From: Actinobacteria bacterium 21-64-8
Lineage (GTDB): Bacteria; Actinomycetota; Acidimicrobiia; Acidimicrobiales; RAAP-2
Direction of reading: 5' to 3'
Length of the DNA stretch: 16,147 nt
Assembly: GCA_002255315.1 (NCBI GenBank)
Contig: NCBD01000008.1
Coordinates: forward strand, 1-16,147
Positions 1 through 7,217 of this stretch are shown piece by piece. Made by a program: the position numbers and the translations under genes. The stretch's first letter is position 1. Every line of letters begins with the position of its first letter. The notes below the pieces were generated by a model. The model was given only the letters and a program-made list of their open reading frames with translations. It did not search any database and had not been told where the DNA came from.

Positions 1-1592
1 ACGGCGAGCAGGGTTCCGCTGCGCAGGTCGAACTCGGGCTGGTAGCGCAGGCGCAGTTGGCCCTTACTGATCGCTTCACGCAGTTCGATCTCGGTCTCTA
101 AGTGTTCGTTCACCCGCGCGCGCAGAATCTCGTCGAAGAGCACGAGCTGGTTCCCGCCGCGGCCCTTCGCTTCGTACATCGCGGTGTCGGCCATCGTGAC
201 GAGATCGTCGCCGAGGCGCGACCCGGCCTCAGAGACCGCGACGCCGATACTCGCCGAGTGACTGAAGTACTGGCCGGCCAGCTCGACGGGTTGGTTGATC
301 ACGCGCAGCAGTCGCTCGGCCGCGCCAAAGAGGACGAACTCGTCGACGTCACCCGAACAGAGAAAGACGAACTCGTCGCCCCCAAAACGCGCGATGTAGT
401 CGTCGTTGCGGATGCTGGTGCGAATGCGGTCGGCGATGGTGACGAGAATGTGGTCACCCACGGTGTGGCCCATGTAGTCGTTTAAGACCTTGAAGCGGTC
501 AATGTCGATAATCATCATCGCCACGCGCTGCTTTTCGTCAACGCGACGCTGGAGCTCTTCGACGAGCGCGCGCCGGTTCGGCAGGCCCGTCAAAAAGTCG
601 TGGTAGGCGTTAAAGGTCGTGCGCTCTTCGGCGACGACGCGCGCCTGGTACTGCACGATCAACGAGGCGATCACCTGGAGGGCTTGAATCTCGGACTTGA
701 CCCAGGCGTGGCGGTCAAAGTGAATAAAGCCGAGAATGCCCCACGTCGTATCGTCGGTGAGCAGGGGCACAGCCGCTCCCCCGACGGGCACGAGGTCGTC
801 GGCGTAGAGGTCGCCCGCGGCGTCGTTGATGCGCTCTAAGTACTCTTCGGTGACGTCGGGCAGGCCCATGAGATAGGGCGTGCGCAGTTCGCGCGTCGCC
901 ATAAAGACCGGGTCCGAGTCAAAGCGCACTTCGCCCAGGGGATCGGGTTCGGGAACGTTTTCGCGCACCGGCCACTCCGCCTCTAAGACGCTCACCTCGC
1001 GCTCGAGGTCGTTACGCCGTAGAAAGGCGACGTCGGCATTCGTAAAGGTCGCCAGTTCACTGGTGACCCAGTCGAGGACCTCCTGGCGATTCTTCGACGA
1101 CGCCGACATCAGTCGCTCCGAGACCTTGGTCACCAGTTCGTCCAAGCGTCGCTGGCGTAAGAGCTCGTCTTCTCGTGCGCTGAGCGTGGCGACGTGGCTA
1201 ATGAGCGCGGCGAAACCTTGGGCGAGCGAGCGCTCGTAGGCCGACCAGGTGCGTCCGTGGCGTCCGACCATCAACACACCCACTTCGGCCCCGTCGTGGA
1301 GGGTAATGGGCTCGACCAAGAGCCCCCAGTCGACGTGGCGCACGGCGCGCACGATGGGCCGTCCGGCGCTGCGTTCCTTTAACAGAGCCACCACGTCGGC
1401 GCGGAACTCCTCAAAGGCCGAGTCGGCGCCGGGATTGACCAGGGGCGCGACGCTGACCGCGGCCGGCACCGAGACGGCGACGGGCACGACGGCCACGAAC
1501 TCGGCACCCAAGATGGCGTGCTGGAGAGTCATGAGCGTAACCCGAGTCTCGCTCCCGGCCTTCATTAAGTCTTTCGGTGACGGTGTGCTCAC
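1..1592 (-). CDS. GAF-GGDEF(-EAL) signalling protein, 3' end outside window
   Basis: Probable cyclic-di-GMP turnover protein. Translating the minus strand gives about 530 residues without a stop before the left edge. Residues about 20-145 end in a GAF-like segment. Residues about 150-320 form a second, clearer GAF-like sensor ('WGILGFIHFD'). Residues about 325-480 are a GGDEF domain with an intact RFGGDEF signature near residue 400 and an upstream RNDD that fits the RxxD product-inhibition site, so diguanylate cyclase activity is plausible. The last residues (LRYQPEFDLRSG) match the start of an EAL phosphodiesterase domain, which lies outside the window, so I cannot say whether it is active. 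No signal peptide or membrane segment is seen, suggesting a cytosolic sensor. I chose GTG at 1592 because GAGG precedes it by 5 bases; in-frame ATGs at 1565 and 1532 are alternatives with poorer ribosome sites. Confidence 0.93.
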   Translation of the reverse strand, partial: MSTPSPKDLMKAGSETRVTLMTLQHAILGAEFVAVVPVAVSVPAAVSVAPLVNPGADSAFEEFRADVVALLKERSAGRPIVRAVRHVDWGLLVEPITLHDGAEVGVLMVGRHGRTWSAYERSLAQGFAALISHVATLSAREDELLRQRRLDELVTKVSERLMSASSKNRQEVLDWVTSELATFTNADVAFLRRNDLEREVSVLEAEWPVRENVPEPDPLGEVRFDSDPVFMATRELRTPYLMGLPDVTEEYLERINDAAGDLYADDLVPVGGAAVPLLTDDTTWGILGFIHFDRHAWVKSEIQALQVIASLIVQYQARVVAEERTTFNAYHDFLTGLPNRRALVEELQRRVDEKQRVAMMIIDIDRFKVLNDYMGHTVGDHILVTIADRIRTSIRNDDYIARFGGDEFVFLCSGDVDEFVLFGAAERLLRVINQPVELAGQYFSHSASIGVAVSEAGSRLGDDLVTMADTAMYEAKGRGGNQLVLFDEILRARVNEHLETEIELREAISKGQLRLRYQPEFDLRSGTLLA

Positions 1593-1629
1593 CAGTTCCT
1601 CGCTACAGTTCGGCTACCGCGATTCCCCA

Positions 1630-2831: not shown

Positions 2832-5714
2832 TCAGTTGAGCTCTTGACCGCGAGGTTCTCGACTCATGACGCGCTCGATGGGCAGGCGAAGGCTTCGCGC
2901 GGAGGGTTCGGGTGAGCGGTGTAGGCGAAGCACCATCACCATTGCTTCGCCATCGTCAAAGGCCCAGCAGGCGCGGAAACGCTCGGAGAGGCTGATTAGT
3001 TCCTCGACGCGGCGCTCGCCCCCGAGTTCTACGAGGTCGCGCTCGTCGTTGGCGTATAAAAACAGCGGCGAGGCCGGTTGGGCGCCGATGCCGTGCAGTT
3101 CGGCCTGAATCCAGAGTCGCTCGAGCGCGACGAGTCGCTCGAGCGCGACGCCCCCGCGCACGAACCACTTGGGGTCGGGGCGCGGCACGGTGACGACCGC
3201 CAGGGCCGCACTCATCGACAGCGCCGCTTGCGTGCGCAGACCGAGCGCGTGACCGCCGCGGGTCTCGGCGAGGGCGGCCATGACGTCGTCGCGACCCAAG
3301 AGATCAAGGGCCGCGTACCCAAAGGCGTCCATTTCGAGGGTGCGCACGTCGAGTCCCTCTTCGATGGCGTCCTGGCCCGGCCAGCGCAGTTCGCCGGTCA
3401 TCTCGCGGTGCAGTTGGGGAATCAAGAAGCGCAGGCGGTCCGCTTCGCCAACGAGCGCCGCCACGTTGGCGAGTTCGGCGCGATCGGTAATCAGGTGCAA
3501 CTTGGCGCCCTCGCGCTCGACGCCGCGTCGAAGCTCGGCGAAGAGCTCGTCGTCGACGGGACCCGAGGGCTGGACGCGGCGATTGGTCGAACGCTGATAC
3601 ATCGCCTCTCGAAGCGGCACCAGGTCCACTTCGCGCTGATCGCCCAGTTGCATCGTCGCGACGTGGCGTGACAAGAGCCCCTCGGGAAAGAGCGACACGG
3701 GACCGAGTCGGGCGAGCGCGGCCGCTTCGACGCGCGCGTTAAAGAGCGCGGCGCCAATGGCGACGTAACTGCCGCGGTACTGTACGTCCATCAAGGTCGT
3801 CTTCTCGCGTGAGAGATAAAGGCGCACCTCGTATTCGTTGGCTTCAAAGCGCCAGGGTTGCACGTTGCCCCCCGAGGGCGCGCGCCGCGCGGCGTCGGCG
3901 ATGCGCACGACCGGGTCGCCCCCCGAAAGGGGCGGATCGTCGGGCACGGGCGTCGCCAAGTACTCGAGCTTGTTCTCGATCGCTACCGGCGCGAGGTCGG
4001 CCAAGATCTCCTCGACGTCAAAGCGCACACGTCCCGAGTTGAGCTCGCGGCCCAAGCCAAACTGGCGCACCGCCGAGGCGACGGTCGCCGCGCCGAGGGT
4101 CACTTCGCTCGCGAGTTGGGGCCAGGCGGTCAGGGTCTGGCCCAGTTCGAACATGGACGCGCCGGCGCGCGCCGAGACGTCACCGGCCCCCAGGATCCGC
4201 AGCGCAATGGGACTCTTTTGCTGGGTCGTCAAGTTGGAGAGCTGTTCGTAGGAGAGCTCGCCCAAGAGTCCGTGAAAGAGTGGGCGCTCGGGCTCGAGAT
4301 CGAAGCGTTCGACGTCGAGCACGCCGCGGTCGCTCGTCTCCATCACGACGGGCAGCTGGCGCCGACGCGCGCCTTCGCGCACCAAGACCTTCATGTCCAG
4401 TGAGTCACACTCTTCAATCACGAGGTCGAGGTCGTCGAGAAAGTGATCGAGGTTGTCGAGGGTCACGCCCTCTTGAAAGGCGACGACGGTGACGTAGGGG
4501 TCAATCTCGGCGATGCGTCGCGCGGCGACGACGGCCTTATTGACGCCGAGGTCCAGCACGCTCGCGGGTAGTCGGTTGAGGTTCGACAGTTCCACGTCGT
4601 CGAAGTCCGCGACGCGAATCTCGCCGGCGAGTCCCTCCATGGCGAGCACGTGGGCGACCGAGTGGCCCGCACTCATCCCCACGACGCCAATGCGCAGCGT
4701 GCGCAGGCGCGCCTGTTCGTCCTTCGTGAGTTTGTTGCGGTTTCGATCAAGGCGCAGACGCGCGTAGGGGCGCGGCGCGAGCACGCGCACCATGGCGCGG
4801 CGCCACGGGAAGTAGGCCCAGCGCGGCGACTCGCGCAGCATCGCTGCATCGGGCGCGGGCAGGAGTTGGCTGAGTTGGCGTTGCTGCTCGTCCACGCGGT
4901 CCACGATCTGCAGGGCGTCATCTTCACGCAGGGCGCGCACGATCTCACGATGCGCGCGTCGCTCGACGTCCAAGATCACCGGGCGCCACGACTGGGTGCG
5001 CACCGAGGTGAGCTCTTCGATGCTGCCTTCGCGCAGCGGCCCTCTCGCGAGTTGTTCGGCTTCGACGCGCATGGCCTGTTGGTGCTTGGGCGAGCTGAGC
5101 TCGTAGGTCTGCGAACGACGCCACGACACGGCGATCGTTTTAAAGCGCTCGTCGGGGAAGGGCACCGACTCGGTACCGACCTGCTGGGAGCCGGCCGACG
5201 CACCGACGCGAAAGAGGCGTTCGGCGGCCGTGGCGATGGCGAGTTCGGCCCCGAGCCAGTTCATCGCGTGGGTCGTCGAGCGCGACAGCGTGAGCACGGT
5301 GCGGTGACCCGCGGCGCTCTTGGACCAGGCGCCCTTGACCTCAATGACGCCGTTGGCGATCTCAGAGTCAATCAGTTTGGCGATCTCGCCAATCTCCGAG
5401 GAACTCGCCATCTCTTCGATGATCGCGGCTTCGTAACTTCCTTCTAGGGGCCCGTGAAAGCGCACGCCCGCGACGGGCTCGCCTTCGGGACTGAATCCGA
5501 GTAAGAAGAGCGAAACGTTACGTCCGTCTTCGAGTTCGCGTCGACGCATGGTGCCTTCGACGCCTCGACTGCGGTACTTACCTTCACCCTCTTCGAGGTA
5601 GATCTGCCAGAGGTCGGGCCGTTCGAGTGGGTGGTGTCCCTCAAAACGAATGCCGGAGGGGTCGACAAAACTTGAGCCGTAACGATAACGTCGCCCCGCG
5701 GCTTTGCCTGACAA
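2832..5714 (-). CDS. Rv1355c-family multidomain protein: acyltransferase-like + ThiF/E1-like + nitroreductase-like
   Basis: 960 residues, compared with about 715 for M. tuberculosis Rv1355c ('MoeY', function unproven). Residues 1-225 resemble GNAT or LuxI/N-acyl-amino-acid-synthase-type folds ('FLLGFSPEGEPVAGVRF' at 70-86, 'EIGEIAKLI' at 107-115); this is the least certain part. Residues about 335-460 are an E1/ThiF adenylation domain: GVVGMSAG at 343-350, DFDDVELSNLNR at 370-381, Lys393, and Asp437 in ECDSLDMK. No CxxC zinc pair and no downstream thioester cysteine exist; Cys436 and Cys916 are the only cysteines. Residues about 600-940 are nitroreductase-like, with the FMN-site motif APSGGNVQPW (612-621) and MYQRSTNRR (705-713). 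The start is TTG, supported by an excellent ribosome site. It converges on the PIN gene and diverges from the secreted protein gene. A molybdopterin role is historical annotation only. Adenylation plus flavin redox recalls RiPP or azoline-type modification, but that is inference. Confidence 0.9.
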   Translation of the reverse strand: MSGKAAGRRYRYGSSFVDPSGIRFEGHHPLERPDLWQIYLEEGEGKYRSRGVEGTMRRRELEDGRNVSLFLLGFSPEGEPVAGVRFHGPLEGSYEAAIIEEMASSSEIGEIAKLIDSEIANGVIEVKGAWSKSAAGHRTVLTLSRSTTHAMNWLGAELAIATAAERLFRVGASAGSQQVGTESVPFPDERFKTIAVSWRRSQTYELSSPKHQQAMRVEAEQLARGPLREGSIEELTSVRTQSWRPVILDVERRAHREIVRALREDDALQIVDRVDEQQRQLSQLLPAPDAAMLRESPRWAYFPWRRAMVRVLAPRPYARLRLDRNRNKLTKDEQARLRTLRIGVVGMSAGHSVAHVLAMEGLAGEIRVADFDDVELSNLNRLPASVLDLGVNKAVVAARRIAEIDPYVTVVAFQEGVTLDNLDHFLDDLDLVIEECDSLDMKVLVREGARRRQLPVVMETSDRGVLDVERFDLEPERPLFHGLLGELSYEQLSNLTTQQKSPIALRILGAGDVSARAGASMFELGQTLTAWPQLASEVTLGAATVASAVRQFGLGRELNSGRVRFDVEEILADLAPVAIENKLEYLATPVPDDPPLSGGDPVVRIADAARRAPSGGNVQPWRFEANEYEVRLYLSREKTTLMDVQYRGSYVAIGAALFNARVEAAALARLGPVSLFPEGLLSRHVATMQLGDQREVDLVPLREAMYQRSTNRRVQPSGPVDDELFAELRRGVEREGAKLHLITDRAELANVAALVGEADRLRFLIPQLHREMTGELRWPGQDAIEEGLDVRTLEMDAFGYAALDLLGRDDVMAALAETRGGHALGLRTQAALSMSAALAVVTVPRPDPKWFVRGGVALERLVALERLWIQAELHGIGAQPASPLFLYANDERDLVELGGERRVEELISLSERFRACWAFDDGEAMVMVLRLHRSPEPSARSLRLPIERVMSREPRGQELN

Positions 5715-5719
5715 AAGCG

Positions 5720-5729
5720 CTCCTCCTCC
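5720..5729 (-). promoter_or_regulatory. Strong ribosome binding site fixing a TTG start
   Basis: On the minus strand GGAGGAGGAG ends 5 bases before TTG at 5714. It is the best Shine-Dalgarno in the window and is the reason the TTG is preferred as the start of the Rv1355c-like gene. Confidence 0.8.
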
Positions 5730-6194: not shown

Positions 6195-6200
6195 AAGGTG
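6195..6200 (+). promoter_or_regulatory. Ribosome binding site deciding the start of the secreted protein
   Basis: AAGGTG lies 6 bases before ATG 6207. The in-frame GTG at 6198 lies inside this site, so ATG 6207 is the better start. Confidence 0.6.
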
Positions 6201-6206
6201 ATTGAA

Positions 6207-7217
6207 ATGAAGTCGCGACGCGCACCGATAGCGCTTCCCTTAGCTCTCGTGATCAGCGCCGCAACCTCCCTGGTGGCTACTGGCGCAGACGCTGGTCAGT
6301 TAGCCCCCCAGACCATCAGCTTCACCTCAAAGACCTTTAATCCTGGCGCGGGCGCGGAGTACATTCCAATCGCCACCGGTGGTGCTTCAGGCAATCCCGT
6401 GGTCTTCTCCATTGACCCCTCCACATCGGCAAACTGCTCGCTCAGTCCGGTAACGGGATTGGTCACCTTCAATATTCCGCCCGGCCAGTCGTGCATCATT
6501 GACGCCAATCAAGCGGGAAATGCGACCTACGCCGCGGCGCTCCAAGTCCAACAGATCTTCACGGCTCCGCTGCTTCCTCAACTCGTATGGATCAATACCC
6601 ACGTGCCCACCTTGCGGATTGGAATGACCTACCAGTTCACTGCGTATGACAAAGGTGGTGGGGACGGGTCTGGAAATCCCATCGTTTTTAAACGGGACCC
6701 GTCATCGACGTCGGGATGCGTCGTGGCGTCGAGTGGGCTGACAATCTTCAGGGCACCCGGTGGTTATTGCGCAATCGACGCGAGTCAGGCGGGTGGCGGT
6801 GAGTACGCCGCGTCAGGCCTCGCAGGCTGGTCCTTTGTGGTCCGACCCGCCTTAGACACCGTGAACGCGGTGGGTTCGGCAACGATGAAAGTGGTCACGC
6901 TGTTCTACGGCACTTCACTAGCCTTACAGACGAAATTGAAGTCGCAATTGAGTGCGCTCGCCCACGCGATACAACGGGAAAATCTGAAATCGGTCACCAT
7001 CAATAGCTACGTCAACCTGAGCGGGGCGACTCGTACGGATCAAATACTGAGCACCCGGCTCGCCACGAGCGCCGCATCGTTCCTCAAGCGACGTCTTTCC
7101 ATCTTGAAGGTAACGGGCGTGGCGTTCGCCGTCTCGGGTCGCGGGGCGACTTCGTTTGTCGTCACTCCCTCAACGTCATTGGAGAACCGTCGGACGGAAA
7201 TCATCGCGACCAAGTAA
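6207..7217 (+). CDS. Secreted protein with two Ig-like repeats and OmpA-like C-terminus
   Basis: 336 residues. Residues 1-29 are a Sec signal peptide: basic MKSRR, a hydrophobic core, and an ADA cleavage site before Gly30. Two related repeats follow at about 35-115 and 124-205. Each has the pattern 'GNPxVFxxDPS', a Cys pair (Cys77/Cys96 and Cys171/Cys188) and a closing 'C(A/I)IDAxQAG'. These match the Ig-like repeats often seen in actinobacterial surface proteins, and each Cys pair probably forms a disulfide outside the cell. Residues about 225-336 resemble the OmpA C-terminal peptidoglycan-associating domain: a serine-rich strand (VTINSYVNLSG), LSTRLATSAASFL, a GRG, and a terminal NRRTEI. 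The protein is probably wall-associated, with the repeats projecting outward. Codon use is more A/T-ending than in the downstream operon. Its ligand or role cannot be told. Confidence 0.85.
   Translation: MKSRRAPIALPLALVISAATSLVATGADAGQLAPQTISFTSKTFNPGAGAEYIPIATGGASGNPVVFSIDPSTSANCSLSPVTGLVTFNIPPGQSCIIDANQAGNATYAAALQVQQIFTAPLLPQLVWINTHVPTLRIGMTYQFTAYDKGGGDGSGNPIVFKRDPSSTSGCVVASSGLTIFRAPGGYCAIDASQAGGGEYAASGLAGWSFVVRPALDTVNAVGSATMKVVTLFYGTSLALQTKLKSQLSALAHAIQRENLKSVTINSYVNLSGATRTDQILSTRLATSAASFLKRRLSILKVTGVAFAVSGRGATSFVVTPSTSLENRRTEIIATK

Follow-up and report, generated by a model that had tools for sequence, protein, structure and literature searches.

The stretch of positions 1 to 16,147 of contig NCBD01000008.1 from Actinobacteria bacterium 21-64-8 (GCA_002255315.1; class Acidimicrobiia), referred to here as the window, carries on its minus strand a gene for a three-domain protein of 960 amino acids (2832..5714), which we propose to be a single-chain N-acyl oxazolone synthase corresponding to the mycobacterial enzymes TrzA and TrzS. 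The frame scan showed 960 uninterrupted codons. The protein starts with a TTG at 5714, in agreement with the starts of its relatives in the alignment, and a Shine-Dalgarno-like GGAGGAGGAG read from the sequence (5720..5729, minus strand) lies 5 nt ahead of it. A preceding evaluation of the letters alone (the sequence-only reading) had described an acyltransferase-like, an E1/ThiF, and a nitroreductase part in one chain at this position, without giving a strand. This architecture was confirmed by Pfam matches to ThiF (residues 323-458, 1.3e-25) and, over a short region, to nitroreductase (residues 602-623, 3e-5). Membership in the Rv1355c family, likewise named by that reading, holds as well: the NCBIfam equivalog NF005901 covers residues 239-950 with 868 bits, above its curated cut-off of 476, with residues 1 to ~235 lying outside this part. 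On the minus strand, the chain is thus divided into a putative N-acyl amino acid synthase domain of the TrzA type with a predicted LuxI/FeeM fold (residues 9-225, 5040..5690), a ThiF/E1-like adenylating cyclase core (residues 323-458, 4341..4748; Pfam), and a flavin-dependent oxidase of the Acg/nitroreductase type (residues 602-950, 2865..3911; Pfam and NCBIfam).

The N-terminal domain was suspected from the letters to be a GNAT/LuxI-type acyltransferase, and structure prediction combined with a fold search confirmed an acyltransferase fold. The predicted structure (mean predicted local distance difference test, pLDDT, 91.4) finds LasI, FeeM, and TofI as best structural matches, from which a GNAT fold of the LuxI/FeeM type is predicted. 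On the sequence level, all Pfam matches of the N-termini are far below cut-off, the N-terminal profile matched no PDB sequence up to E 10, none of 48 N-termini examined matched FeeM (PF21926) up to E 1, and hhalign of the N-termini against one FeeM domain revealed no profile similarity (probability 0.5%). Matches were obtained to six separate mycobacterial acyltransferase frames (59-89 bits, phmmer), and the N-terminal profile reached 212-220 bits with one Nocardia and two Rhodococcus frames. For TyzA, an enzyme of tyrazolone biosynthesis, FeeM and BjaI were reported in 2023 as closest folds (PMC10404671).

The key to the function of this chain is given by genomes in which its parts are separate genes. 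At three Mycobacterium/Mycolicibacterium loci (L085, L086, L091), an open reading frame (ORF) resembling residues 21-226 (59-85 bits) stands directly before an ORF matching residues ~244-947. A TrzA-like frame was detected within the surrounding 15-19 kb in each of 10 split-type genomes, adjoining TrzS in six of them, and Nocardia farcinica (L163) has a TrzA-like frame ahead of TrzS. Separate ORFs matching the two parts side by side provide Rosetta-stone evidence that TrzA and TrzS are joined in the window protein. The chemistry of the split form was published in December 2025: TrzA (Rv1356c) N-acylates tryptophan, and in the Mycobacterium smegmatis TrzS the exchange D217A abolished cyclized products while R540A and Q651A impaired the oxidase (PMC12856293, section 7). 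With this publication, the order of events postulated by the sequence-only reading, carboxylate activation followed by redox modification, turned out to be right. By spacing, the three exchanged residues correspond to D437 (4404-4406), R762 (3429-3431), and Q879 (3078-3080) of the window protein, all on the minus strand, the interval of 323 residues between the first two being found in 4 of 10 and that of 111 between the last two in all 10 split-type rows. Conservation was counted over an alignment of 34 rows including the window protein and the 10 split-type rows. The adenylation residues pointed out beforehand, R381 (4572-4574), K393 (4536-4538), and D437, are all present and, together with R762, invariant in 34/34 rows, and Q879 is kept in 30/34.

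Since the family cut-off is passed, the tested residues are kept, and split counterparts exist, the protein is most plausibly a TrzA joined to a TrzS, and by homology the gene very probably encodes a one-chain N-acyl oxazolone synthase. In a first step, the LuxI/FeeM-fold domain would transfer an acyl group from acyl-coenzyme A (acyl-CoA) or acyl carrier protein to the amino group of a most likely aromatic amino acid, with tryptophan as the first guess because the remainder of the protein is of the TrzS type. The ThiF domain would then, in analogy to the tested TrzS, use adenosine triphosphate (ATP) to adenylate the N-acyl amino acid at its carboxylate by means of R381, K393, and D437, whereupon the amide oxygen would close onto the activated carboxylate, giving a saturated oxazolone. 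Finally, the oxidase domain, presumably dependent on flavin mononucleotide, would desaturate the ring product with O2. Such an enzyme would be a convenient reagent, as formation of the oxazolone from acyl-CoA, amino acid, ATP, and O2 would be expected from one protein. Several observations weigh against this assignment. The N-terminal domain is only 22-27% identical to TrzA-like frames, and its amino acid may differ; the equivalence of the tested residues rests on spacing and not on the M. smegmatis protein itself; and the window sequence belongs to a 65%-complete bin. Furthermore, the oxidase domain contains an exact 18-bp tandem duplication (3114-3149), repeating residues 856-861 as 862-867, which is absent from the other 33 alignment rows and could harm the window copy; it is either a real micro-duplication or an assembly artefact.

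Two other products or roles were considered for this enzyme. The end product might be an N-acyl dehydro-amino acid similar to the thalassotalic acids or stieleriacines, the oxazolone being no more than a reactive intermediate whose ring is opened by water. As described in PMC12479983, organisms producing dehydro-N-acyl tyrosines have ThiF and nitroreductase genes beside N-acyl amino acid synthase genes, and an oxazolone was not seen there; the ready hydrolysis of oxazolones by acid (PMC12856293) would fit such an end product. The closest studied relatives, however, are the TrzS enzymes, to whose family the window gene belongs, and the tryptazolones they release were found in cells, according to PMC12856293, so that we consider the dehydro-amino acid an unlikely end product. 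The same source states for M. tuberculosis that tryptazolones could not be detected. The inherited label 'molybdopterin' would imply a sulfur-carrier or ubiquitin-like E1 of the molybdopterin/thiamine type, to which the ThiF fold and the adenylation residues would be suited. The sequence-only reading had argued against this role from the presence of only two cysteines, the lack of a zinc CxxC, and the lack of an adjacent moa/moe gene, and each of these points was borne out. The window protein contains exactly two cysteines (436 and 916), with the qualification that Cys436, adjoining Asp437, is invariant in 34/34 rows; a CxxC occurs in none of the 34 rows; and no moa/moe gene was found among the 15 window proteins scanned (Pfam). 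In addition, the MoeB, MoeZ, and ThiF models of NCBIfam score 30-67 bits, far under their cut-offs of 152-647, and a second ThiF-like frame elsewhere in the bin (L002; 28% identity over 341-458) looks MoeZ-like by eye. A sulfur-carrier function is hence hardly credible, and N-acyl oxazolone synthesis remains our assignment.

The distribution of the fused form was examined by scanning one genome per species, which yielded 271 relatives; the best 80 were kept, a sample leaning to close kin. Within this set, one open frame covers the protein (from query residue 11 or earlier to 950 or later) in 62 relatives, three are split over two frames by frameshifts, five are cut by contig ends, and ten are split-type genes, belonging to Mycobacterium, Mycolicibacterium, and Nakamurella. 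Misassembly of neighbouring genes can be rejected as the origin of the chain, as full-length fused homologues with 55-84% identity occur in dozens of other genomes. In the genus of the window, 59 of 80 genomes carry the fused gene, and an even draw of 396 genomes from the phylum gave 16 above the NF005901 cut-off. Besides Acidimicrobiia, the fused form is represented in a second class by a record titled Nitriliruptoria. Five records titled Acidobacteriota/Acidobacteria or Candidatus Saccharibacteria (L016, L040, L047, L052, L075) carry an Acidimicrobiia-type gene, and their titles are probably wrong. In the unrooted tree of the shared part, 25 fused and 20 split rows form the two sides of one branch (99/92), which indicates one change between the forms on this tree. 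A Desulfovibrio-type protein used as root sat on a branch of 10 changes per site, and no rooting was obtained.

The second gene of interest lies downstream of the synthase. On the minus strand at 3..1613, cut by the contig start, a frame with homology from near 1571 encodes GAF-GGDEF and the beginning of an EAL domain, i.e., a protein of cyclic di-GMP (c-di-GMP) turnover. Complete copies following the fused gene in relatives contain GAF, GGDEF, and EAL in 3/3 scanned (Pfam), and M. tuberculosis Rv1354c has the same layout (GAF 28-171, GGDEF 212-345, EAL 354-609; PMC2994820). Searched against PDB sequences, the GAF part of the partner gave no match up to E 1. The gap between both genes amounts to ~1.26 kb in the window versus ~150 nt in the close relative L016, and the segment hosting two small plus-strand ORFs (1764-2207 and ~2216-2760) therefore looks like an insertion. 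These ORFs have no Pfam match; by eye, they resemble a ribbon-helix-helix/PIN toxin-antitoxin pair.

A GAF-type partner accompanies the synthase at 75 of the 80 loci, within 400 nt at 71 and at a distance of 1.5-2.9 kb at four; at four of the 75 (L017, L046, L048, L052), only a partner fragment at the contig end is present. Among the five loci left, two end inside the synthase (L083, L084), one is a 4.5-kb contig (L090), one has a GGDEF without GAF match (L080), and L087 is a true absence, having neither a partner nor a TrzA-like frame in the 10 kb examined on each side. The 80 loci come mostly from one genus; hence, three further linkage tests were made. Outside the genus, all 13 genomes of the even phylum draw above the cut-off have a GGDEF gene within 6.5 kb of the synthase, all 13 of the GAF-GGDEF-EAL type, compared with an expectation of ~0.57/13 for evenly scattered GGDEF genes; ten of these genomes belong to one family and three to another, and they are not independent. 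In the 6.0 Mb of one of them (G364), GGDEF was matched just once (E up to 1e-10), and the TrzA, TrzS, and GAF-GGDEF-EAL genes of this genome overlap by 4 nt each, taking the first possible starts. Within the genus, 58 of the 59 genomes carrying the fused gene also have the partner orthologue, compared with one of the 21 lacking the fused gene (Fisher 1.2e-16, kinship ignored). An orthologue was defined by at least 55% identity, paralogues among the matches listed having at most 42%; the paralogue status of G702 and G705 was assigned by E-value. In G666, the one genome of the 59 counted as lacking the orthologue, a partner fragment stands at a contig end (L046); in G664, the one of the 21 counted as having it, the orthologue lies 326 bases from the contig start.

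Phylogenetic evaluation supports a joint inheritance of both genes. On a GlmS tree of 31 rows (the window, 13 genomes with the pair and 17 without; two of 32 requested gave no GlmS), at least six changes are required to explain the presence of the pair, four of which are imposed by branches with good support, and both genes change in concert; this is the tree of one gene, and an apparent loss may stem from an incomplete bin. A second tree, built from 59 GGDEF-EAL segments (57 different; taken from 24 of the 80 loci plus L125-L161), unites 36 linked GAF-type rows and five unlinked mycobacterial duplicates in one clade (100/99). The 18 other GGDEF-EAL rows fall outside of it, three of them likewise within 7 kb of a synthase gene. 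Judged by record titles and NCBI taxonomy, three classes contain the pair, in at least four layouts, with the partner downstream, upstream on the same strand, upstream on the opposite strand, or separated by ~2.6-6 kb. The partners thus constitute a single orthologous group that has stayed near the synthase across these layouts. Among the 36 linked GAF-type segments, a rough motif scan gave GGDEF in 32, GDDEF in two, and neither in two, as well as an EAL-like motif in 31 (13 + 4 + 2 + 2 + 2 + 1 being EAL or EVL), five motifs spelled ELML or ELLL possibly being off-site.

Further genes of this kind were noticed. Many Acidimicrobiia loci have a third gene, GGDEF without EAL (~270-300 amino acids), after the GAF-GGDEF-EAL gene (e.g., L009 14016-14912, L010 4663-5481, L011 4657-5478), and at L138 (8145-10494, genome G549) a second relative comprises the ThiF part alone (residues 254-574) and is immediately preceded by a GGDEF frame of its own.

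What this linkage means can be weighed against the literature. According to PMC12856293, the physiological role of the oxazolones is a major unresolved question; this source mentions c-di-GMP genes beside trzAS in one species, M. tuberculosis, and likens oxazolones to cell-cell signals. The wide linkage of c-di-GMP gene and synthase was not found in print in a literature search limited to one open-access library. As wide, clade-specific, and co-inherited, it turns the published remark into a testable hypothesis of an acyl-amino-acid signal read through c-di-GMP in Actinomycetota. The product of the synthase probably acts jointly with the linked GAF-GGDEF-EAL protein, and by analogy we tentatively suggest, as a possible but rather doubtful reading, that the neighbouring GAF module binds the oxazolone, or the N-acyl amino acid preceding it, as its ligand; synthase and receptor would then form an Actinomycetota counterpart of RpfF/RpfR, with an acyl-amino-acid signal setting c-di-GMP. 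If true, this ligand-receptor relation would include the mycobacterial DcpA-type protein and answer what oxazolones are for. A number of observations speak against signalling: besides the absence in L087, no synthase lies near five mycobacterial members of the partner clade, a GAF-type partner without any TrzA-like frame in the sequence examined is found at L088 and L092, three plasmids (L164, L166, L168) of Mycolicibacterium sp. TY66, M. dioxanotrophicus, and M. fortuitum carry TrzS without GGDEF and TrzA-like frames within 7 kb, and two Rhodococcus plasmids carry TrzA-like and GGDEF frames and no EAL frame (eight plasmids examined of 34 records with a match).

Other explanations do without a receptor. 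With c-di-GMP controlling the synthase, or with both genes in a shared biofilm or stress regulon, the oxazolone could be an envelope lipid or a redox-active product, and to this view we assign a considerable probability, somewhat short of even. The GAF domain of M. smegmatis DcpA is reported in the review PMC8846402 to bind guanosine diphosphate, which also counts against signalling; in bacille Calmette-Guérin (BCG) without the c-di-GMP phosphodiesterase BCG1419c, the trzA orthologue BCG_1418c, by number adjoining the deletion, is up (log2 0.87; PMC11126594); and several chain lengths occur among the oxazolones made by the studied TrzAS pairs, which does not resemble one tuned signal (PMC12856293, section 8). 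This view gives no reason, however, why the gene staying with the synthase through several gene orders should code for a GGDEF-EAL protein with a sensor, from a single clade, and not for some effector. Alternatively, synthase and c-di-GMP gene could have been chance neighbours in an ancestor and be inherited together without function, for which the dominance of one genus, the two families behind the 13 outside genomes, and the lone synthases of L087 and the three plasmids could be taken as support. The occurrence in three classes and at least four layouts, the joint gains or losses on the GlmS tree, and the 4-nt overlaps in G364 argue against it and render this explanation improbable.

Apart from these subjects, the lone TrzS genes of L164, L166, and L168 stand beside genes for a cytochrome P450, a TetR regulator, and a dienelactone hydrolase and may belong to a different pathway branch. 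In the window, a plus-strand frame at 6198-7217, upstream of the fused gene and divergent, gives a match to an OmpA-like C-terminal domain just below the Pfam cut-off (24.7 versus 27.2 bits). Rfam gave no match within the window, and a whole-protein scan of viral contigs confirmed nothing.

Compared with known systems, the window protein is closest to TrzA/TrzS (Rv1356c/Rv1355c and their homologues in M. smegmatis and Rhodococcus jostii RHA1; PMC12856293), sharing three predicted activities, the NF005901 family, the tested residues, and often the same kind of c-di-GMP neighbour. It differs by the fusion of the acyltransferase, separate in TrzA/TrzS, to the N-terminus, with 22-27% identity to mycobacterial TrzA-like frames in that part. 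For the non-pathogenic R. jostii RHA1, a double deletion of trzAS has been described (PMC12856293). OxzA/OxzB of Pseudoalteromonas rubra and TyzA/TyzB/TyzC, which form tyrazolones (PMC10404671), likewise combine N-acylation, ATP-dependent cyclization, and O2-dependent desaturation, but distribute them over two or three separate proteins, use Tyr/Phe substrates, and belong to another ThiF subcluster, according to PMC12856293. The same order of N-acyl amino acid synthase, ThiF, and nitroreductase is found in WP_011176612.1 of Nitratidesulfovibrio vulgaris (PRK14852/NF011425; 989 amino acids), filed as 'hypothetical protein', with FeeM at 43-198 (PF21926, 150 bits), ThiF at 316-565, and nitroreductase at 609-638. 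Its first domain is FeeM, without profile similarity to the window-type N-termini, and the window protein is not a member of NF011425 (93.9 bits, cut-off 1337). A unique architecture was thus rejected, and on this evidence the fusion appears to have been reached twice. On an N. vulgaris plasmid (L162), the FeeM-ThiF-nitroreductase fusion adjoins genes for PEP-CTERM proteins. Altogether, the chemistry is already published for the split form and the one-chain fusion is a variant reached independently elsewhere; what deserves further attention is the conserved c-di-GMP partner. RpfR has the domain string PAS-GGDEF-EAL, and its gene is paired with that of the diffusible signal factor (DSF) synthase RpfF. 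RpfR is a phosphodiesterase binding the fatty-acid signal BDSF (PMC8846402). The likeness, an acyl-signal synthase paired with a sensor-GGDEF-EAL protein, is reflected here in the proximity of the synthase and GGDEF-EAL genes, whereas the synthases are unrelated, ligand binding is an experimental result for RpfR and a hypothesis for the window-type pair, and the sensor is PAS there and GAF here; with GAF instead of PAS, the window pair could work like RpfF/RpfR, but would not belong to it.

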